DNA from: Nectonema munidae | Lineage: Eukaryota; Nematomorpha; Nectonematoida; Nectonematidae | Assembly (NCBI GenBank): GCA_030549495.1 | Contig: JAUIRK010000320.1 | Location: 157,643-221,642, forward strand | Reading direction: 5' to 3' | DNA: 64,000 nt | Shown here: piece after piece, positions 17,701 through 47,700 of the stretch | Position numbering within the stretch: position 1 is the stretch's first letter | How the letters are laid out: each line of letters begins with the position of its first letter | Made by a program: the position numbers and the translations under genes | Notes under the pieces: model-generated | What the model was told of the DNA's origin: nothing | Database searches by the model: none | The model's input: the letters and a program-made list of their open reading frames with translations, nothing else

Positions 17701-20700
17701 ATTGTAAAATTTTATTGAGGCAGCAATTATTACTTTTACTCTTTTTTTTCAAACGTTTAGAATAACGAAAAATTTCTTCTTCAGGTTTTGAATTTAAGAA
17801 ATTCGAAGCAACAAGAACTTCTCGGTTGTCTTGCCATTAGCAAAATGATATACCATGTTTCTCCTCCAAAAACTCTTCATAAAAACCCCTATTCTTTTTT
17901 GCTATTTCTTTTTTAGACAAAAGCGGTATTTCATTGACCCTATTTCTTCTAAAAGTAGAGGTAATTTTTTGTTGTTTTTCGGTCATTTTATCAAAAATAT
18001 TCAAACTCGAAAAATAATTATCACTAACATAATGATAACTATTTTCTAAATATTCAGAATTTTTTTAGAAAAACCTAAAACGACACTCTCTCCCATAGTA
18101 CAAGATGGGATTTCATCTGAAAACAATGTATTTTTACCTTGATATAAATCAAAATTGACTACATAACCTGGATGAACACAATCACTCCATTGCTTGTAGC
18201 CAAACCTTTGCGGCTTACCTTTCATAAATTGTTTTAAAAAATGGTGTCCATAATAAGCAATCATACTTTCATCAATGCTATGGATTTCTTAATATGGCTG
18301 GTTTTTATTAAAAATTTTATTCATCTCTGTAACCAAAGGCATTACTTTTGTAAATTTGTCAGTAGGGTTTAAGTTATTGTTGTCAGAAAAATGAAGATAT
18401 TTCTTTATTTCATCAAATCTATCACGACGCATTGAATCAGAATCTATTTTGACATTACAGTCTTCTGATCTGCTCCAATATAGTCTCCTTTGAGGAAGTT
18501 TATGGTATCCCATCAAAACAACAATTCCTATAAAAACAATGATTTCCTCTATAGTTAGATTCAAATTCTTATTTTTTTGACTTGCGTACAAGTTGCTATA
18601 CTCAACTATCATTTCAAGAAGTTCCCTTGTAAAAAATAAATAAAAAACATCAATAATATTCATTGGTCTATTATAAAAGCGCGGAAAGTTGACAGTAGCG
18701 AAATCTTTGTTCAACTTGCTTTCCACGCTGTCTTTTCTCCACTTTCTTTCAGAACATGGCTTTCTTTTTCTACAAATTTCACTTTCTTCACTAACGCTTT
18801 CCAAAACCACTAGTTCAGCTTCCGCATTCAATTGATTTCCAGATAGATGATTGATGTCTAAATCATTTTCGTCTCCAGAGTCTTCATCAGAGATAACACT
18901 GACTGCGTTAGTTGGTAGTTATATGTAAATTTCACCATTCACTAATCCATTCTCTTAAATATACTCTATTATGTTGTTCAAATTGTCCTCTTGAAAAAAA
19001 CTTATAAATATGCGTAAATATTATTATGTAATTATGGCTTTTGCAAAAGGCCTTAAGGCCGGCCCTGACTGTAGTGATAGATGAACATTTATAAAAATAG
19101 TGTTTTGGTTGAACTTTCTTCCACACGCAAGCTACAAAAAGAATATGAGAAAAATAATTTTTATACTTCTAAATTAGTTGAAGAAATTTAAAATCTTCAT
19201 GAGCTGGAAGCTTGTAAAATAATTATCGAAATAAAAATATGGCCATTTAGTAACGTAACTTTTGAAACATTCTTCAAAACAGATCCTGGAGGGTGGGATT
19301 ACAATTTTCTCAATTATATATCTTTTTATAGTATTTATTAGGATTGTTTGTCTTCTGAGTAAATTTTCGATATTACTTTTCTTGTTTTAAGGTTAAGTCT
19401 TATAATGAATATTTAAAATTTATTTTTTTCATTATCGTTCGCTTCTTTGCTATAATAGTAATGCACATTTGAGCTATATTTGATCAGAGGCAGTAATGTA
19501 GGCAGTCATGTGAATAAGAGCGCATGCATTTTTGAGCGAGGCGAATATTTTTTATAGCACATATAACTCTATAATTTAAGGCTTAAAATGTGTATCCCTA
19601 TTAATTACTGTAACCTAGCCCGTCGATAAGGGGGGGGGGGGATGGAGAAAACTTAGTACAAATAATATCATTTTCTTTTCTCGTAAACTCAAGGCTGAGA
19701 AAAGTCAAATCGAATTCGTAATCAATAAAACGGTTGGTCGAGGGTTTCATCAAAGAAAAATGGGATCAGTGATAAAATGTGTGCTCGGATGGAATGGAAC
19801 ACCCGCAATATTAAGTGTACATCAGGTTTTCATTGCCAGAGAAAACATGTCAATCTCACAGAGATAGCGACTCATTGCCTGTCTCACCTAGAAAACCTTA
19901 CTTTTTGATAAATGTCACTTGAGCTTAACACTGTTATAGAAGATGTTATTCAGGTCTTATGACATTTCATCATACGACACTTCATCACACGACAGTTAAT
20001 GTGTTTTTCTTCATTTTTCATTACTGGAGTAAGGTTTTTTAGGAATGTACCGATTCCAAATATTACAAACAACTTCAGTTTTGTCAAAGCATTTGACAAA
20101 ACTAAATTAACATTTTGTTTATTAAAAAACAAATTAGATAACACTTTCTTTATTTAATATAAATTTTAAAATTTGAAAGAAATTTTTCAAGGTTTGAAAA
20201 ATATTTTTTTATTTATTTGAAAAAATGATTCAATACAGATTCTTAAAAAAAATAGCTGAAGTACATCGCTAGTTTTTTTTTTTATAAAATTCACAGTTTT
20301 ATGTCATGAAATGTCGTGTGATGAAGTAAAGCCTTGTTGTAATGAAATAGAGTTGTGTGTGGTGATGTGTCGTAGCACGGTTATTCAAACAGTAAATTTT
20401 ATTAAATCATCAGCATTGAATTCAAGGCTGTTTATTGAAAAGTGCTGTGCTATGGGATCCGAATATGAACATATGTTTTACTACTCTTCTATCAGGGGGC
20501 TATCACGAGAAAAAGAGCTTTACATGCGTGCAGAGGTTCAAATTTTCCTAAACGGGAAGAAACATGTGCTGACATCAACGCTTACACGAACAAAGTAATT
20601 GCTTAAAATGGCATATCTGACAGAAACTTCATAGTTGAATTTCTTGAATATGTCAATTAGGGTGTCTCTGATGCCTTTACAGTTTCATAAATCAACCAAC

Positions 20701-23700
20701 CTTATTTATTTACAGCATATATATCTTATATATCTAAAAACCTGAAAAAAAATTATTTGATCAAAGTTTACCTTAGGCACATCTTTATATCAACTTAGAG
20801 GTCGTTCACATTTAACGTTATAAATATTTTGGTTGATTTTCATACTCCCCTCCTCTTTTTTTATGTCCTTATTAAGTCAACTTAAAAAAATGATTAATGA
20901 CTTTTTTCAGCTACTTCACTTCTCTCTACTTTTGGTTGACGTCTATTGTAAAGGCCTTTTTATATTATATCAATATTTTGAAGCATGTAAAAAAGAAACA
21001 CAAAGTTTATTCAAATGTTTTTAAACATCAAACTATAAAGAAAATAACAATTTTTTTAATCAATTTTCATACTTCTGTTTTTTTCTTTGGTTGGGTAAAG
21101 CTTTCCGACCGTTTTGAAGAACTTGCAAAACTTGTTGAAAGTTTTCCTCTTCTTTAGATATTGAAATATAATCTGAGCAAAGCTTGACTCCCCGCTCTGC
21201 GACGTCGTTTACAACTAACAAATTATCAACAGTTTCTTTTCCTTCTAAATAAAATTATTGTTTTTCCAGTTATTGACTTCCTCTTCAAAAAACGTTGTAT
21301 CGATTTGAAGTAAATGAAAAAACATCCAAGAATCATATCCAATCAATGAAGAAATGTTATGCCAATTTTCTAAATTTTTCAAAGTTGGAAAACTTGGTTT
21401 ACCAAAATAATTTCCTATTCGACTATGAAAGTCAAGCTTTGATGGTTTATTTTCTTTAAGATTTTTAATTATAAGTTGTTTCGTTGAAGCATCTACTTTG
21501 TCATTAAACAGGCTAATTGGAATCACTTCTTCCGTTAAATACCAAAAATGTCGTGATATGGCCTTAATAGCAGAAGTCGCACAAGTCATGTCAATTTCCT
21601 TATATTTATATAAATCTTTGAGAAGCTTGAAATCATTAAATGGCGCATACGAGGCTAGATGTGCTTCAAACCACCAGGTTACATAAAAAAGTTCACAAAT
21701 CTTTTTACTTTACACTTTTGCTCATTTGTTATTAAATCTTTCAATGCTATTTTTTTGATATATTTTCACAAAGCATTTCAATTTTTAAAGAATACAAAAG
21801 CTTTGACATCCACCTGGCCTTATGAAGTGCTCCCGGTCTTCTAAATCCTGCGAAGTTAATATTTTTTCCCCGGCTTAAATACAAGCAAACAAGATCTGCA
21901 AGTTCCTTATAATCTTCTCTAATAAAATGTTTCGACTTTAATTGTTTACAATAACTTAAAACTTCTTCGATCATTCTAGAGTATTTACTATCAAAAACTG
22001 GAAAAGACAATTCTTCTATCAAATGAGTGTTTAAATCGGAAAACTTGAACTTGAATCTTTGAAAAAGTGATACATTAGGACCACTTGATGGTTCAATTTT
22101 AAGAACATTCCAGACATCGCTTAGAATAATCTCACCGATATGATGGCGGCAAGCAAACCACAATAAAGGTCTTTCTAATTTTCTTTGTAGAAAAACGCAT
22201 GTTCCTGTTTTTATTCCAGTATTACAGGGTGGAGTATCAAAAACTATACCGTTGACACTATTTTCGCAGTTCCATTTCTTTAATAAGTTTACACATGCTT
22301 CAGCATGTACTTCTCCGGTTTTTCCAGATGTTTTCTTTGGTATTTTAGGAACACCCAGAAGCTTTATTCCTGTATCCCCTGAAATTAAAACAGGCAGTCT
22401 TTCTTCATGGTCAGAGTTTTGTAGTGTCTTCATGATCTTGCTATCCCAATGCAAAAGAATTTTTGATGGAGCTTTCCAATTCAATTTTATTTCACTAGCA
22501 ATAGCTTTACTTTCAGAAACTCGACTTCTTTGAATGTAACTGTGACTTAAATTAACAGCATGAGGATCACCTCCACACTGTTTTATCATTGTTTTCATAG
22601 TGACTGAAAGAGCTGTTGTTGAAAGTTTATTTCTTAGGCTTGATTGAACCAAAGCTTTAGATTGTAAGACATCATGGGGAACAAAAAGAAGTGTACCAGT
22701 TTTTACTTTTCTTTTATGACGTCTTTTGCTAAACTTTTGAACAAAAGAGCTATTTTTCTCATTTTCGTTGTCTTCATATTCTTCAAATTGGCAACATGAA
22801 CTTGAAGACGCAAAACTGTTAGTTGCCAACTTTGATCTGGTTTCTTCCAACTTCTTTTTCTATTCTCGTTTTTCAACTAATTTACCAATCACATTATCTT
22901 TACAAGTATAGGATGCAGCTCTTCCATCTATCATACTTTTTATAAATTTAATGTCTTCTTCCAGGGTTAATATTTCAATTTTTGATTTACATTTTTTCTT
23001 CTGTTCCATCATCGATTTAATATTCTTTGGCCAAAAGGGCATTGTAAGTGTGAGCATGTTCTGAAATTTTTTTACTTTTTCACTTGTTAGTCTTCTTGAT
23101 AATGGAATTTTTCTTGCAAGTTTAAACTCATTATAAAAGCTTTCAACTTTTTCACAAACTTTGTAATCAGATATAATATCAATTCCAGCTTTCAAGTAAT
23201 GCTTTTTTATTTCTTCTAACACAATTTTAGATGCTTTTCTTTCAAGTTTAAGATTTTTTGTTTTGTCTTCACTTCTCAATTTTTCCATATTGAATAAAAA
23301 ACATAACAAAACTTGTTGATGAGTTGGAAATCGACATCCAGTAATTTTCAGGTTATCTAAAGATGAAGATTCGCAAAGAAAATTCAAAAATGACTCAGAA
23401 CTTCTTGTCTTCATTTTATAAATTAGAAGAAAAAATAAATATGATGTTGAAAAAATTATTTATATTCTAAAATAAAAAATATATTTAAAATCATAATTTT
23501 TATTATAAATATATATTATATTAAAGAAAAAGATGATGTGCTTGAGGTAAAACAAATGTCATAAACTTTATATTTTATATTTGTGTTATTTAGACCTAAT
23601 CGCTATATTTCTCAGAGGTTGAGCTCTTAAAACTAAAAAAATTTATTTTTGAGGACATCAGAGACACCCTAATGTCCATACAAGGAAAATATGAGACTAT

Positions 23701-26700
23701 AATCTGTGTGTCAGAAAAGTTTAAGGCTTTCAAAACAAACCTAAGGGTGTGGAAAGGAAGGATTGAACTAACAAAAACGGCGTGCTTTCCACTTTTAAAC
23801 CCTTTTCTGGAAGATGGAAAAGACTCCTCACTTCTGGCCATATAAAGTCTCATTGTTGAGCACCTTGAGAAATTGAGTGAGGAGTTTGACAGATACATTC
23901 CGTGTGGAGAACTGCATGAGAAATACAAATATTTGTGAAGACTCTTCGATATCCAAGTCCAGGATCTTTCAGAAGAAGAGCCTTCTATCCAAAATAGAGG
24001 AGCTTATAGAGATCCAGCATGATGAAACTCTTTGTTTTAACTTTCACCTACAAACTCTAATTGTGTTCTGGACTGCTGTGAAAAAAAGAAACCAGTCCTT
24101 GGATTCGAGGCTGTGAAAGTGTTATTGCATTTCGCTACAACCTATTTGTGTGAATCACGATTTGCAGCTCTGACTGCCATCAAAACTAAAAGCTAAGGTT
24201 AAAGCTCTGGCTGCCACCGAAACATGATTTGAACATGACAGCACTTTTCAAGCCTGAACCACGAATAGAGAAACTTAGCAACATGATACAAGCCCAAGGC
24301 TCCAATTAAAATTAATTTACCTGTTCACACCTTTGGCTTATTTTTTAAAGAATGTGACAGAATATTATTTCAGAAATGGTTGTTTTATTTAATGTCAAGT
24401 TTTAAAATTCATATGCTGTGAATATAATAAAATTTAAAGTACCTCTGTTACAGATAAATTCATTAACAAGTGTCGTCCCCTACTTTTACAGCCAGCTAAC
24501 CATATAGTTTTAATAAAATAAATGCAACTAAATTAGTGGGGTCGCGTCATATTTTGAGAAATATAATTGGGGTCGCTTAAAAAATGTTGGGAACCACTGA
24601 CTAAAATAAAATATAACAAATTTTAAAATAAAATATAACATTTTGTAACAAACACGCCTATTATAAGTAAGTAGCTAATTGCTAGCTTTTTTGTACTATG
24701 ATCCCCAAAGGTGAATCACATCTAGTACGACAAAAGCACTAGTGTATATACGATGTACTCTATTTATTATGCAAGAAAAAGATATTCTATAAGACTATAT
24801 TTGGGTTTTACTGTCAAACATACATGACACTTCGAAAATATGTATTTAAAATTGGACGACTGTTTTCTCGTCGCAGCCGTTTGCAGTGAAGTAAATTCTT
24901 ATAGCTTTTACCCTCTTGTGATGCAGTAGCTTGACTTTTAGTTATTTCAATCAAATTTGAATCACCAGGACACGCAGCTATCAAATAATTAGGCAATTCT
25001 TTGCTGATCCACATTTGGGGATCATGTTAATTAGTGGGTTACAAGACAACAAAAGCATTCATATATGATAGCAAAATATTTGTTCCTCTTGCTTTTTGTC
25101 AGGATAATAGGAACACCGAGTACTGCGTAAAAACTGTATGACAGGGGAGACTACTTTGTAAAAAATTAGTTTGCGTTTCTATATGTGAAGTAAACATTAG
25201 TATTTTTTGTGCTATCAATGACTAAAATGTTATTTTCAAAAATGGAAACCTTTTTATAGTGTTGGCTGTTGGCTAAAGGCAGTAATAAATAACATGCAAG
25301 TATTTCAAAATGAAGTAAATTTTAATGAAGTTCTTTGTTTTAACCAAATTTTTATAAATATACTTTTTTGCAGCGTAGCAAACGTGCGTAAGCTTTTTCA
25401 AGTAAAACGCGGGCGTGGCTAAATGATTCTTACAAAGCTTGTCTATAACATCCTCAATATTTATATTACACCACAAACTCCCGTCTAGACTCATATATAA
25501 TAGGATTTATTTATTAGCATTCGAATTTTTTTCTCGCGCTTTTTAGAAATTAATAATTCATCGACATCAAATTCGCCCACGCTTATTTTTACCTAAGAAC
25601 GATTTGTCTATGAAAAACTAGTTAAATCATTTTATTATTCCTGTTATAGACACTTTTGTACCAAATACATTTTCATTTCGATTTTAATTACGTAACATTG
25701 TTCTTAATTAATATGTATTTTTGCTTGATTGTGTTCATACTACCTAAACTTACTCAGCTCAAACAATGCGGAGATTGTCATCGAATCTTGTGGAATCACA
25801 TTTCAAATCTTTCTCCGTGAACTCTGCCTCTAGTCGTGATGAAGATGTGGACTCTTCAAGGCCTCCATCCACTCCCACTGCTCAAGATATCAATGCGATA
25901 GGGAGAACAGAATTTTTGCCTGTCACTTGGTACGAAAAGTTGCACTCGTCAGAAACTGGAATTGATAAGTAATTAATTCCTTCAAAATTCATATTTCTTT
26001 AGCGCGAAAATCTTTTCCTCCCACCTTTAAAATCTTGGCTTGGTGTTATACAGCCCTTAAAATTATTTTCTTATACTTCTACACTACTCTTTTAGCTTAA
26101 TTGCATTATAAAAGAAAAAACGTATACACTTGGCAATACAATAATAAAAAAATAATTTGGTTTCTTTCCAATGGAAATCTTCCATAGCTGGACAGATGAA
26201 GGCGATCATTACTGTAGGGATTTCAGCTGACTGAGCAGATACGATTAACTTTTGTTTCTCTAGGCCCACAATTGATAAACACCTGACTCAATCATCCCTA
26301 TCCGGGTATTGATTGCGGTCCTGAAAAAATAGGGATACAGCTATGAAAAAAGTAACACTACTTGAATTGTATTCAACAAACGAATGTTAAAAAACAGTTA
26401 GAATCAAGCACTGCCTTAATCTCTTAAGTTCTTGTATTCACAGACTCTTTTAATCAAAAGCATGCACTAAAACACTCGGTGCGTTACTTTCCTGACATGC
26501 CGCAGGATAAACTGAGCCATGGCTTTTTAAGGTAAACGGATAACAGTTTCCCGAAGAGAAAAGTTACCACCACATTGCCAGGTGTTAACTGCTTTTTCAT
26601 TCGCTATAGTAGTGTAGAGAACCTTAGTTCTGTTACAGTAGACTTAGTATCTGAAGAAACAATAGGGCATCCGCTCTCCTACAATGACACACACCGTGTA

Positions 26701-35700: not shown

Positions 35701-38700
35701 TTCAGAGTGTTATTTTACTCTAAAATTGTTGGTCTTCTTTTTCCATTTATTTGTAAACAGTATTTAAAAATATATATGGCTCTCAGAGGATTAGATTTTA
35801 AAATATGTGTTTTTTGGGCTCTTTTAGCCAAAAAGGTTCCCGGCCCCTGCACTAGAGCATCGCTTGATTACTTTTTAAATTTTTACTTCCTAAATGTTAA
35901 AAAGGCAAAACTAAGGAATATTTTTAATTTAAGAAGACATGGATACACCAGATTGAATATTGATTGTGAATTTTATTCTAGGACCAAATGGCAAAATTTA
36001 CCCATGTCTCTATAAAAAGAACAGCCCCTGCTCTTCAATTTCCAACTTAAAATATATTTGTCATCTTTGAAAAAATTCTGTGCTTCCCTTTCTTTTATTG
36101 GTAAACAACAAAAAATTTACAAAAATAAGTATATTGGAGGAAAAAATTTGAGAATGGAAAACCGCACAGCGGATTCCATTCTCCTAAGAGAAAAAATGAG
36201 TGTATGTGGCCTTGTATCACAGTCTTGGGACCACAACACTTGTAGGTAGAAAAACTCTAAAGTTTAACATAAAAAAGAGACCCCTAGGGCCTTAATGTAA
36301 GAATATTTGTAAGATTATAATTTGAGGCCCTTGGGCTATAATACACACAAAAAAAGACTTGTCTTTGATCCGGGTGGGTGGGAGTTGCGGCAGAAATTCG
36401 ACAAGAAGAAAAGAAAAAGTGAGAATTCTAGGAGCGGGAGCTCTTTTATAGGGAGCTCATAGGATCCAGCTACTCGAGCTTCTGATTGGCCAGGGCTTGC
36501 CATGTGCCAGTTCCCTCCAAAACATCCGGTATTGATGACTTTCGAGGCGCCAATTGTTGGATTATCAGGAATTTAACAGGCGCTAACTGCAATGTTAACG
36601 GATCCTATCTGGTAGGATTTGGCTTACTCCTAGAATGCTCGGGAAGCTTGCTTCCCAGAACTTTTGGAGGTGTTTGAAGATGGGGGTTGTGTCATTTTTG
36701 GTAGTTTGGGTTGCAGGAGAGGTTCTTCTGGAAGGTTCGTCTGCAGGATTCTCATTGCTTGCAATGTAGGAAACGTTTTCCCTGAGGAAGTCATAGTTTC
36801 CAAACTTAATCAAAAATGCAATCAGGATAAAACTTCTAGTGGACTTGCCACCAGCATTTTTAACCACTTCAATAGCGACTTGGGAATCAGACCTTATTTG
36901 GTGGAGTGGGAAGAGCAAGTGCCCAAGGGCAAGGGCGAGTAGCTCCAAGTCCGCTATGTCCCAGTCTGTTATTTGAAGAGGAAAGCTGTATGTTTTATCG
37001 GCGTTGTTTGTGATGCCTATCCCTCTGAGGGATGCATCTACGTAGATATAACCCTTAGGTTTAGTATAGTTATACATGTCCCAGGACGAGAAGATTGTGT
37101 TCCAACCTTCTCGGTGGAGGAATTTAATGATTTCTTCATTAGCCGTCTGGCTTAAAATCTTGAAGCCTAATGAGAAGAAAATGAGAAGAATCTTGGCCGG
37201 TGTGTCAAGGTTCCTAGGTAATATGTTATCACTCCTAGTATCCTTTGACACCATTTGACCGAGGGGGCCCATTTCATCAGGTTGCTTAAAGCTAGGGCAA
37301 CCATCGCTTTGATGATTAGGGCTCTGTTCTTTGCGGGGATGAACATTTTATGTTGTTGCAAATTAAGTGTAACTCCTAGGAAATTAAGTGATTGGGTGGC
37401 CCGGGTGATAGATTTGTTCTTATTTATGACAATCTTGCATTCTGTTTCAAGGAAACTGATGAATAGGGAGCCATATGTGTTGGTGTCATCTTCCGTTTTT
37501 CCTAGGAGAAGGAAGTCATCTAGGTATAGAATTATCTGGATGTTGTGGTTTGGGTACCTTCCTAGAAAGGTGCCCTTGAGGCTCATCAGGCACCGTTGCA
37601 GGACTCCGGGTGAAAAGTTTGCTCCCATTGGGAGTCTGGTGAATTTCAAGTTTTCAAAGGGTTTAGCCCTTATTGTGAAGGTAGATTGCCAGTGCTTTGC
37701 TACTTTGATGCCGTAAAAAGCATCTTTTAGGTCTAGCTTAATTGCCCATTTAAAAATTTCCCTGATGTACTTAAGTTGGAAGGGAGCTACCAGCTTAAGT
37801 TTAGGGCATTTAAATAGTTCCTTGGTGAAAGCAAAATTTGCCACTAGCCTGGTTTTTCTTTCTGCCTTTGGGACGATGAAACACGAGCTAAGAACCCTTG
37901 GATTCCTACAGGGTTCCACGATTCCCACTTTAATAAGTTGTGGAATTACTGTGTTCTTGATAAATCCACTCTGTCCCTTGGGAGGTAGTAAGTAATTGGA
38001 CAGGCTTTTGAAGGGAACATTGCTAGAAATGCGAGGTGCGTAACCTTTGGTTAGCGTGTTTCTAGTAAATTTGCACCTAAGGTCCACTGGGGGCCGAAAG
38101 GTAGGGCAACTAGCGTGAAGGTTGCTTCATTTGGTAGTTTCAGTGACGTGGAGTCTTTAGCGAAGTCTCCGATGGTATCTTGGAGAGTGTTCAAATCCAA
38201 AATGGACTGGATTTGTTCTTCATCCCGGTCGCTAGGACCAGGGGGTTTGTCCTTGTTTTTATTGTTTTCGTTTTCAGGGTGGTCGGGTTCTGGAGGTTTG
38301 TCTTCTCCTGAAAGGCGGGTGGTGAATATCTTTCTCCATTCTTCTGGAGTGTGTTTGTTCTTATTTCTTAGGTAATAGTCTAAGAAATCCCGGTAAGCTT
38401 CAGGAGTGTCATTATCCGGGTTCGTTAGGAAGTCCAGTTCCGGTAAATTTGTTGGGATCACCTGGACTATTGGTGGGTTAAAACCCGATAAAGATATCTC
38501 TGGGATGTTGTCCACCACTTCGATTTCCACCCCGCTAGGGGATGGGGGTCCTAAGACCGTGTTCAGTTCCTCACTGGTGAGGAGGTGTCCAACGGTAGGA
38601 GAGGGAGGTCCGAGGATGCTTCTACGTCCTGTACCGTTGGTAGGGGGAGGATCACCTCGGTGACGTTTCCTATTTCACTAGTGAAGGAGAACAAGGAGTC

Positions 38701-41700: not shown

Positions 41701-44700
41701 AGAACCACGGTTTGCATCGCGACCCATAATACTTAGGTATAATAAGACAAACTCTGTTCACTAGGTTCATTTATTCAGCATCGACTATTTATATGTCCTT
41801 TCTTTTTTGTCATGACCCATTTTATTTTTCACGCGACCCACTGAAGGGTCGGGACCCACAGTTTGAAAAACGCTGCTGTAGGGGATATGTCAAATTAGTT
41901 TTCAAAAAACTTAAGTTATGCTGTAAAATTTTTTAGTTTTTGTTGAAGCTCTATAACTTTTTCTGATAGACTTTTTTCCTTAAAAGTTATTATAAAAGGC
42001 AAATCATTGCAAAATGATAAAATTTATTTTACTTTTTGTAAATTTTTGTAGCTTGCATCAATTTAGCTTTTAAACTATTTTTGAATGATGCTGAGAAAAA
42101 TAAAATAATGCAATCTTAATGCATTGTTTTATTTTTCTTTGCACAATTATAACTTCATTTTATACCCTTGCCCCTGAATCAATCACATTTTTTTCATATA
42201 AACTTCGCAGGGTGTCTAGTAGACTCTTTGCCTTCAGACTACATTAACTCATATAAAGCTATCCAACCCTGAGTTATTTGTTTTCTCTATGAATCAAATA
42301 TCCTTTCATCAATTCCTGTAATGTACCTGGTAGACTACTTTATTTTTCAAATGAAAAGCCTATTCCACCCCCTCTCCCTCCCCACAATTTAGGATTTTTT
42401 TTAAACTTTTCGTATTCTGCAAACTTAATTAAAATATTTTCGCTGGAAGTATAGTATTTAAATTCACCAATTTTGTAAAAAAAATATAAAGTAGTCTTAT
42501 AAATTTAGGACTTTAGGTATGCGCTGAATACACTCTATTTTAAAGGATTGCTTGAATATTTGGTCTATCATGGTATTTCCAGACCACTAATTTTGAAAAT
42601 TGCAACAAAAAAATTTCGCCCCCAATAATTTCGTATCTCTTCTGTTTTTATATCGTTACTTTCTTTAAACCATTTTTTTGATTAACTAAGTTACCAAAAT
42701 CTCGGTACCATTTCCTCCAAAATATATCTACGATATTTTGCATGTGCATGAATCTTGAATAAGGATACTTTTTAAAATCCAACGTACTATGTTCTGAATG
42801 GGTGTTTCCTAAAAGTAAATCATTTGGGCACGAATATTTTCCCTCTTCAGGATGAGTAGGATGCTTTCCAATTGGTCTGTTATTCATAATGCTTGCAATT
42901 TCAAATAAAACAGTTTGGAATTCTTCAAAATTAACGACTGCATCTTTTTCTAATTTCAACATTAAGTTCCTTTTTACGCTTTTAATTAATGACTTACTCA
43001 CTTACTTCGTTTTCCCAAGGTGCCTAAGCGGTGAAAAATGCCATTGCATTTCTATGGGTTCCACGTCACCATAGTTTTCCACTGCTTGTTTAATGTCTTT
43101 AGCACTTTTTATTAGCTGTGATACTTTGTCAGAAAAACGCTTTTTTGGGATACCCCTGAAAGAAATAAACCTCCTAAACGCCCTTAAGAAAGCAGCTGTA
43201 TCATAGCTTGACAACGCATCTAAATATACTGCTCTCGTTGTTAAGCAGTTTATTATTAATCCAAAACCTTTGTTTTCAGTTCTAGATCTCCCCCTTTTCT
43301 GTTTAAGCCGTATTGGTCCAAACAAATCTAGGGCTATGTACTCAAAGGGCAAAGATGGTTCAAGTCTTTCTCTAGGCAGAGGACCCATTTTTTTGTTGCA
43401 CGCAATTTTATCTAGTATTTTGCACGTTATACATTTGAACCGTACCGACTTTGATAACCTATTAAGATTTATAATCCAGTATTTGGCTCTAACTTTGCAA
43501 GATGTGGCATAAGCACTCGTGTGACTGTGATCGTGAATATATTTAACATACAACTTTGAAAATATATGATTTCCTGGAAGTATGATTGGTTATCCAATTT
43601 CCTGGGTACGTCCTGATACCCGCTAAATTCCATCTTTATCTTTGTATGGCAAAGGGTTTCGAAATTCATTTTTATTCATATTAATTTCAATTGTGCTTTG
43701 TGCATTTTTTATCTATAAGTTTAGGGCTTCTTCCTTCCGTTCTTTACTTATCGTATCATTGAGTAAGCGGTTCCACCAATCCTTCTTACGATTTATAACT
43801 TCCAAGACTCTTGCTGCTACATTTATTAGCATCTTGTAGTTTCGAAATCTAGTAATATCAATGTATTCACAGACGCTTCCTACCTGATTTTTATTCCTAA
43901 TATTTAAATTGATACCTTTTTTTGCATAATCTAATACAAGCCAATTTTTAAAATCCTCGTATGAAAATCTTGGGGCCGTTTGCCACTCAGAATATTCCTC
44001 AAATTTATGCGAACAAGGTCTTGTTAAAATATCAGCCATATTTTCTTTACTTGGTATGCAAAACCACTGTTTTGGTGCTGAAAAACCGTGTATTTCTCCA
44101 ATCATGTGTGAAACAAAATTATCAAACTTATAAGAATCTTGGTTGATCATGGAAATAATTACTGTTGAATCAATGAAAAACAGAACTTTATCGAATTTAA
44201 TTCGACAGGTGCTCTGCAAAAATTTAGCCAATCTTTTAGCTAAAACTGCACCTTGCAGTTCTCCTCTCACTATAGTTAAGACATCTGTTTTCAATGGCCA
44301 GACTTTGGTTTTTGCGGCAATTAATCTACAAAAAATCTCATTATTTTGCAATTTATATCTTATGTATGCACAAGTTCCAAAGTCCTGATTTGAACTGTCT
44401 GAAAATTAAACTTAAAATATTTCTTCCGGGAAACTTAAAACCAGCCACATTTTTACTCTCCTTAGCAAGGTCATAATTAAAATGGGAGTTAAATACGTCG
44501 TCACCGACATTCCAACATATACCCAGTACTTTTTAAATGATCTGTTTTGAAATCATGCAAAACTTTGTTGCCTGAAAAAATCCACTTTTTAATGAAAAAA
44601 TTAGCCTTGGACAAGACTTGAAATTCGACTAATAATTCCTTCAAGTTGGGATAAATTCATGCATGAATCTAATATATCGTCAACATAAGACTGTTTTGCA

Positions 44701-47700
44701 ATCACATCTTCAATATGTTTACAATGAGCTAGTTGAGCATTCTTATTCAAAGCAACCATACTTATTGCTGCAGCAGGTGCATCCCCGAAACAATTAACTA
44801 CCATCAATTAAAATCAATGACTGTGCCACTCTAATGGAGTAGTCTTTATTACATGATACATCTTTTTAATGTATCCCAGAAATGCAAACCTTCCTTCTCT
44901 AAATCTTATTAAAATTTCTAAAAGATTATTGATCATTTTTGGACCTTTATGCCAATACTCATTTTAATGCCCAACGTATCATATACGATACGCAATTGAA
45001 TACTATCATTTGTGTCCAACGTATCACATATGATACCTTAACAAATATAAATAGTTTTTACACTTATAATCACAACTGAGTTTTTTTACATTAAACATAT
45101 CTTTAAAACTCCTAGATAAAACACGATCTATAAAAACAAATGAGTACTTGTCTCATGATAGTTTTTATTTCAAATTATAAAATATAGTTTATTTCAAGTA
45201 TACTATCACTTAGAAATTTCGATGTTTTGAAAAGGAGTAGCTACACATGTGACATGATTCATGATAAATATTTAGAGCAAACAGATAGCATATAATAGTT
45301 CACCATCAAATTTTATCTCATGATGTTGTGTTTAAGATGTGAAGAGGAAAAAATGTTAAAGTATCATATGTGATACGTATGACTTGACGATGAAAATCAT
45401 TATCAGTGAACGACAACTCAGTTGTCATATTGCAATCTTAAAAACAGATAACAGTGATCAATCAAATGTATGAAGTAATTTTCATTTATCTTTTTCAATT
45501 TTAAGCCTTCTTATTTGACTTTTCTGCAAAGCTCTGCTCGTTTTTATATTCAGCAACTACACTCTTATTACCTTTCTCATAATAACGATCAATGGTACTA
45601 AAATTTGAATGTACTCGTATTCATGAAATTGGTAACCATTAAAAATCGAAAAATAACTGAATTTTTTTTACATTCATGTTTACATGAGAAACAATGTTTT
45701 GATCATCAATTGCCATGATACTCCAGTTTTTAGTTCAAATTAAAAAAGTTGTGGCTAATTTTGATGAAGAAATAAAAAAATAGTTCTAAATGTTTCTGTT
45801 GATGCATTTTTTCTTTAGTTTTCCTAAAGGACGGAGTGTAGTTTTTTATCATGAAGTGAAAGAAAGGCCAAAACATTAATGTTTGTTTCATATTCTAGAG
45901 TTTTATTATTTCTGATATACTTGAATTAATTGACGAAGAAGAAATAGCAAATGGTGATGTTTATATTGAGCCTCCAATAAACGCTTGCTCTTTGGTTTCC
46001 GACGAAGAATCTGGGGTTGAAGAAAATTTTTCATTCGATAACTTGACAACAAATCAAATTGCTGCGTCTAGAGTAGTCACGAACTTGGATGAAAATAATG
46101 ATAATGATGATGAATTCCAATAAACTCTAAAATCGAATGGGAAAAAGTCAAGTGTTCAATGGAGTGTTATGAATACTGGCCGAAACTTGAAAAATGAATT
46201 TCTTCTAGTTCATGGGCCTCATGATCAACCTCTGTCTCCTTATTCGTTTGTCTTCTTTTTTTCAACTTAGAATTGATTGATGCAATTGTTTGATTTACCA
46301 ATCTTTATGCTGCCCAAAAAAATAATGCCTTGAATACATCAAGAGAGGAAATTCTTTGTTTTCTTGGAATTTTGATAATGCGAGGGTATACTATTTTGTC
46401 TAGAAAAAGAATGTACTGGAAAAAAACAAGATTGCTTCAACTCATTTATAGCAAGCTCCATGAGAAGACAAAGATTTGAAGAAACCAAAAAGTATCTTCA
46501 TTTTTTGTGATAATACAAAGCTTGAATCCTCTGACAAATTTGCCAAAATCAGGATGCTTGTGAAGGAATTGAAAGAGAAGTATCAGTTGTTTATGCTTTT
46601 CAGAGAACTCAATTCTATTGATGAAACAATGATTTCGTACTTCGGTAATCATTGTAGTAAACAGTTTATCAAAGGCAAACCCATCAGGTTCGGCTACAAA
46701 CAATGGTCTCATTGTGTCTCGCCAGGATATTGTGTAAACTTCGATCTGTACCGAGGAAAGAGTCCAGACAGCTCTTATTTTGGTGTCGGACCATCAATAC
46801 TACTGAAGTTTGCCAATTCTCTCAATGAAAAAATGCTCAATAATTATCATTTTATTGCTGACAAGTACTTCTCCACTTATGATATTTTGAAAATAATGAA
46901 AGAATTGAACTTTAAAGTAACTTCGACATTAAGATCAAACAGATCAAGAAATTTCCCAATAATTTCTCTGAAATATCTCAAAAAAGAAAAAAGAGGATTT
47001 TATAAAATACTTACTAGCAAGGATGGAGTAAATTTGTGTCAGTGGTTCGATAATCGCTCAGTACTTGCTATAAGTAATGCTCTAACTCAACCTAATATGA
47101 TAATGTATATAACAACGAGATGGGATGGGTTGATCAAATGGACCAAAATATAGCAAAGTACCGCTGTTGTGTGCGTCGCAAGAAATGGTACTCGCCTATA
47201 TTTACCCACCTTGTTGATATGACTATGAATCAATCATGGATTCTTTACAGGTTATCTCCAGGAGTTAAACTAGACTATTTGCGTTTTAGGAGATACATTG
47301 TAGATTTGCCTCTAACAAAATATAGTACAAACCAGTGGCGGATCCAAGGGGGAGGGGCTCATGGGCCTTGCCCCCTCTCCTCCTATGAAAAACGGCTTCG
47401 AAAATTACCCTTACTAATTTTGCTTTTTCCTAAAACAATGCTTGTTGGTAGTTGATTACATGTTAAAAATATGAAAACATACGTAATTAGTGATTCTAAA
47501 AGACATAATACAGCTGTTGTATTCTCTGAAAACTCTTAGCAAAATTGCAAAAAAATTTAAATAGATTTCACCCCCCAAAATAAGAAATTAGCCAAGCAAA
47601 GCATTGGCAATAAATAATGGAACGACTTCAATCAAAAAGATTCAATCAACTAGGGCATTTTGTTTCTTCGATTGAAAACAAAAAGCGATTGAAATGCAGA

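Follow-up and report, generated by a model that had tools for sequence, protein, structure and literature searches.

Transposons of the hAT superfamily have short inverted ends starting YARNG, and an N-terminal BED zinc finger is common, but not universal, in their transposases. Within the superfamily, hATm was proposed as a fourth family with more than 74 Repbase entries, its termini given as 5'-TAGGGTG and CACCCTA-3' and its target-site duplications as 8 or 9 bp (PMC6004678). Here we describe a 3,014-bp element in a 64,000-nucleotide stretch of Nectonema munidae DNA (the window, to which all positions refer unless a copy is named). The element is, with high confidence, hAT-like, and we read it as a decayed DNA transposon of the cut-and-paste kind that belongs to the hAT superfamily and, within it, most likely to hATm as published (rough probability 0.85). 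Its parts are as follows.

20650..20657, no strand: left target-site duplication ATGTCAAT, 7/8 identical to the right copy
20658..23671, minus strand: whole element, delimited by copy alignments and empty-site paralogues
20658..20673, plus strand: left terminal inverted repeat TAGGGTGTCTCTGATG, 16 bp, from the sequence
21060..21254, minus strand: C-terminal transposase frame with AER (putative catalytic E)
21245..21709, minus strand: third transposase frame, helical insertion part
21747..22859, minus strand: central transposase frame, 370 amino acids, with HWD (first D), FD (second D), CRHH (CxxH) and ARW
22860..23414, minus strand: 5' part of the transposase gene (N-terminal helical region), ending at the in-frame TAG 22860-22862
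23656..23671, minus strand: right terminal inverted repeat, CATCAGAGACACCCTA on the plus strand, the reverse complement of TAGGGTGTCTCTGATG
23672..23679, no strand: right target-site duplication ATGTCCAT, 7/8 identical to the left copy

The original prediction, made from the sequence alone, had proposed exact 16-bp terminal repeats and an 8-bp duplication matching at 7/8 positions, and both were borne out by the ends and by the octamers that border them. Random octamers from the region agree at 7 or more positions with a chance of ~1.1e-3, and octamer pairs from the region or the loci agree at all 8 with a chance of ~7e-5 to 8e-5. Both ends begin with TAGGG, in agreement with the YARNG consensus, and both extend to the full hATm termini, as do those of C729, one of the copies described below. 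One 7-mer count revealed no subterminal repeats.

A search of the host genome (211.6 Mb in 748 contigs) placed the 16-mer end, with at most one mismatch, at 11 positions, 8 of which pair up as the two ends of four elements: the window element and the copies C563, C410 and C729. The other copies with these ends and 8-bp duplications that the original prediction had proposed to look for were thus found as three further two-ended elements, all with perfect duplications (atatatac, atgtgcat and gtatatat, respectively). The remaining three positions are lone ends, with partial element copies at C50 and C635 and no element sequence found beside the C365 end. Places with two mismatches (n = 34) were indistinguishable from noise, a reversed-pattern control giving 25 against 45 matches in total. 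The three long copies are pairwise 97.7-98.3% identical with gaps left out, and the two outside the window compare with the window element on the same basis as follows.

C563:261441-264462: copy, 98.3% identical to the window element
C410:31304-34300: copy, 98.0% identical to the window element

Each of these copies has TAGGGTT at one end, which makes its inverted repeat 18 bp long with a single mismatch. The C729 copy (L034, C729:745833-746736) is a 904-bp, internally deleted element with exact ends, resembling a miniature inverted-repeat transposable element and non-autonomous.

Empty target sites were sought by joining the 120 bp on either side of the window element with one duplication and comparing the product with the genome. 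Among the 40 places listed, 2 were the window's own flanks; the other 38 were paralogous copies of a host repeat, 77-85% identical, every one of which spans the joint (query position 120). Of two that were aligned base by base, L062 carries ATGCCCAT at the position of the duplication and L061 is one base shorter at that point. For the insertion at L021, too, uninterrupted paralogues exist: four places span the joint, and two of them were aligned. With the flanks of L028 the repeat was matched on one side only. A non-mobile gene or pseudogene is ruled out by copies with different duplications together with the empty paralogous sites. The sister copies, duplications and empty sites likewise uphold the earlier proposal that the ends tie this CxxH protein type to a mobile element with defined boundaries. 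The host repeat itself, at window positions ~20540-20657 and 23680-23799, has at least 38 other copies in the genome at the identities given above.

The element belongs to a wider family, the central 370-amino-acid frame having at least 114 matches in the genome, and six relatives that were fetched have open frames of 745-765 amino acids from the first Met. A scan for paired TAGGGTG and CACCCTA termini covered 33 loci, a good number of which are partial or overlap one another, and six distinct elements had both termini exact (L021, L024, L028, L051, L052 and C226, the last being L045/L048). With one mismatch allowed per end, 8/8 duplications were found at L021 (TTGTACAG), L024 (ATGAACAT), L028 (AGGCGCAT) and L052 (GTGGACAT). 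The 8-bp duplication of hAT is thereby present at eight accepted insertions in four subfamilies (seven at 8/8, one at 7/8), a length that also lies within the hATm range; L049 (without a left end), L050 (without a right end), L051 and C226 are omitted, the duplications of the last two not being clean. Taking one strand each, and the left octamer for the window, the accepted duplications have T at position 2 in 7/8 and A at position 7 in 8/8; the strongest target biases of the hAT element hATx-6 are reported at the same positions 2 and 7 (PMC8721813). Two further relatives, L053 and L054, have 745-amino-acid open frames and ~2.45 kb in common at 97% identity.

The transposase gene of the window copy lies on the minus strand from 23414 to ~21060 in four frame pieces. 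Its open frames run from 23459 to 22860, through the TAG to 22859-21747 with the frame unchanged, and then change to 21709-21245 and 21254-21060. The earlier description of a single long gene broken by one in-frame TAG and small indels, with HWD, FD and CRHH motifs, therefore stands, and the window copy is unable to encode a transposase from its own sequence. Near 21,747 an A-run accompanies a frame change in the window and C563 copies with different run lengths; in C410 the overall frame is kept there, but nearby stops break that copy. A programmed frameshift at this run was considered, and ordinary decay is the simpler explanation.

The TAG at 22860-22862 is also present in the C563 copy. 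At this codon C410 and C635 have TAC, and C447 (locus L018), a more distant copy, has CAC. The stop is thus common to two of the four subfamily copies covering the site. Since C563 occupies a different site, bordered by a different duplication, the common stop suggests movement after the stop arose, with the enzyme supplied in trans. Judged from these sequences, some of the movement, if not all, probably took place in trans after inactivation; two independent identical substitutions producing the TAG in the window and in C563 are less likely.

In protein databases the central frame has 262 homologues at E<=0.001 among 3001 candidates, mostly nameless, "hypothetical" or "uncharacterized" among the best 120 of the 262 and among the best 120 of 208 in a second search. 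A sequence search of the PDB returned one match only, at chance level (E 1), and weak Pfam matches (PRESAN, Retrotran_gag_2 and others below cut-off) were rejected as chance. Structure models of homologues predict an RNase-H DDE domain with a large all-helical insertion, CxxH and RW, which is the Hermes fold. In both structure models the best row for Hermes (PDB 2bw3, 4d1q, 6dwz) stood ~7 Z units over that for every other protein, and the alignment of the full-length model to Hermes covers residues 135-609; absence from such fold lists does not exclude a family. The likeness extends to the tryptophan of the insertion RW and to a C-terminal E helix, whereas identity is 8-14% in VIA alignments. 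P and Kolobok elements also have CxxH-like motifs, and membership in either type would account for that motif; the fold match to the P element was weak, and we give this alternative hardly any credence.

Two hATs of the same genome that bear PF05699 (L055 and L056), picked for long open frames, served as positive controls. One has TAGAGATGTATCGGAT at both ends and an 8/8 duplication GTAAGAGG; the other has ends TAGTGTTG.../TAGGGTTG... (12/16 alike) and an 8/8 duplication AACTGATG. These canonical elements share with the window element TAGNG-type ends (TAGAG in one, TAGTG/TAGGG in the other) and 8-bp duplications, but differ from it in end sequence (TAGAGATG... and TAGTGTTG.../TAGGGTTG...) and in that Pfam recognises their PF05699. 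By profile, the L055-type alignment resembles the family of the window element only marginally.

Several observations weigh against assignment to hAT or to hATm. Neither PF05699 nor BED (PF02892) was among the listed Pfam matches at E<=10 for 41 members of A1 (25 of 28 families listed) or for L049, L052 and L053, and neither was matched at E<=1 in the four window frames. An hhalign comparison with a canonical hAT alignment was weak (probability 17%, P 0.0014, 65 columns; A1 8%), and the tryptophan that hATs carry two positions beyond the first D (W182 in Hermes) is missing, a tryptophan standing instead before that D. As regards duplications, C226 (~652.2-653.6 kb, 1,487 bp) has exact TAGGGTG/CACCCTA termini and octamers alike at only 6/8 positions, those of L051 agree at 2/8 in register and at 7/8 if one end base is counted as lost, and no paired TAGGGTG ends with an 8-bp duplication were found in the L053/L054 subfamily. 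Finally, PF05699 is reported in hATm-6 (PMC6004678), and a scan of viral contigs gave 8 stretches matching a pattern and 0 relatives, the reported bracovirus hATm providing no reference.

The domain, profile and tryptophan results would all suit a separate, non-hAT DDE superfamily whose hAT-like ends and 8-bp duplications had been retained or had arisen by convergence, the fold match then reflecting the general RNase-H fold of transposases with a helical insertion. So would the N-terminus, in which no column within residues 1-220 has Cys at 80% or more and 16 of the 30 rows counted contain at most one Cys, so that no BED finger is present for want of a conserved N-terminal Cys. We regard this explanation as improbable, given the lead of Hermes in both models and the extent of its alignment, the hAT-like ends, the duplication length and the T2/A7 preference, and even the weak hhalign alignment pairs FD with D, N with N and CRHH with CxxH. 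Membership in hAT is the reading we retain, and the view in the original prediction that the protein type is not known as a named superfamily is not supported: the ends and duplication length match hATm, and the predicted fold matches Hermes. The match to a well-described superfamily of another duplication length, which that prediction had named as grounds against itself, did not arise because hAT also duplicates 8 bp.

The hATm label is most likely correct as judged from the ends and the duplication, to which comparison with published hATm was limited. A hAT lineage other than hATm (e.g., hATw or hAT19) with TAGGGTG ends by coincidence would be compatible with that limited comparison and with the lack here of any matched Pfam hAT model, unlike hATm-6; it is nonetheless unlikely, as the seven-base termini agree base for base with the published conserved ends of hATm and hATm can be abundant in an arthropod, making up 5.77% under the RepeatMasker-style label DNA/hAT-hATm in the Bathynomus jamesi genome paper (PMC9107163). 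The divergence of the transposase from canonical hATs is a further likeness to hATm. Beside the hATm paper, a search of the open-licence library for these termini listed one paper, on centromeric tandem repeats, and no other description of transposon termini TAGGGTG/CACCCTA was recognised in that library; the family is probably not new to science, being already named but little studied.

By analogy with characterised hATs, the transposase of an intact relative would bind the element ends and cut by D-D-E (HWD, FD, AER) with help from CxxH. Excision would follow the hAT hairpin route, leaving hairpin-capped flanks behind, and insertion would occur at an 8-bp staggered cut favouring nTnnnnAn. 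A more tentative idea, which we hold as possible though rather doubtful, is that the transposases of hATm or its kin form a deep hAT lineage unseen by Pfam, in which the BED finger was replaced by a helical N-terminal DNA-binding module of different fold and the active-site tryptophan moved before the first aspartate; end recognition and base stabilisation in hairpin formation would then differ from Hermes. The element itself is ordinary. Nameless proteins of this type find an explanation once they are linked to ends, duplications and a Hermes-like fold, and annotators could mask them as transposons; the gaps worth filling are a Pfam or hidden Markov model for these transposases and the N-terminal module.

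The window also holds other mobile-element remains. Two fragments with PF13843 (DDE_Tnp_1_7), at 18292-18918 (minus strand, E 6.7e-31) and 46464-47150 (plus strand, E 3.7e-29), we take to be of piggyBac type. A retroelement reverse transcriptase frame lies at 37170-38126 (minus strand, PF00078, E 4.5e-16), with neighbouring frames at 36598-37347, which had no Pfam match, and 38051-38674. At 43005-44405 (minus strand) lie the remains of a BEL/Pao-type retrotransposon, with Peptidase_A17 (E 1.3e-19) and, weakly and below its cut-off, Integrase_H2C2 as Pfam matches.
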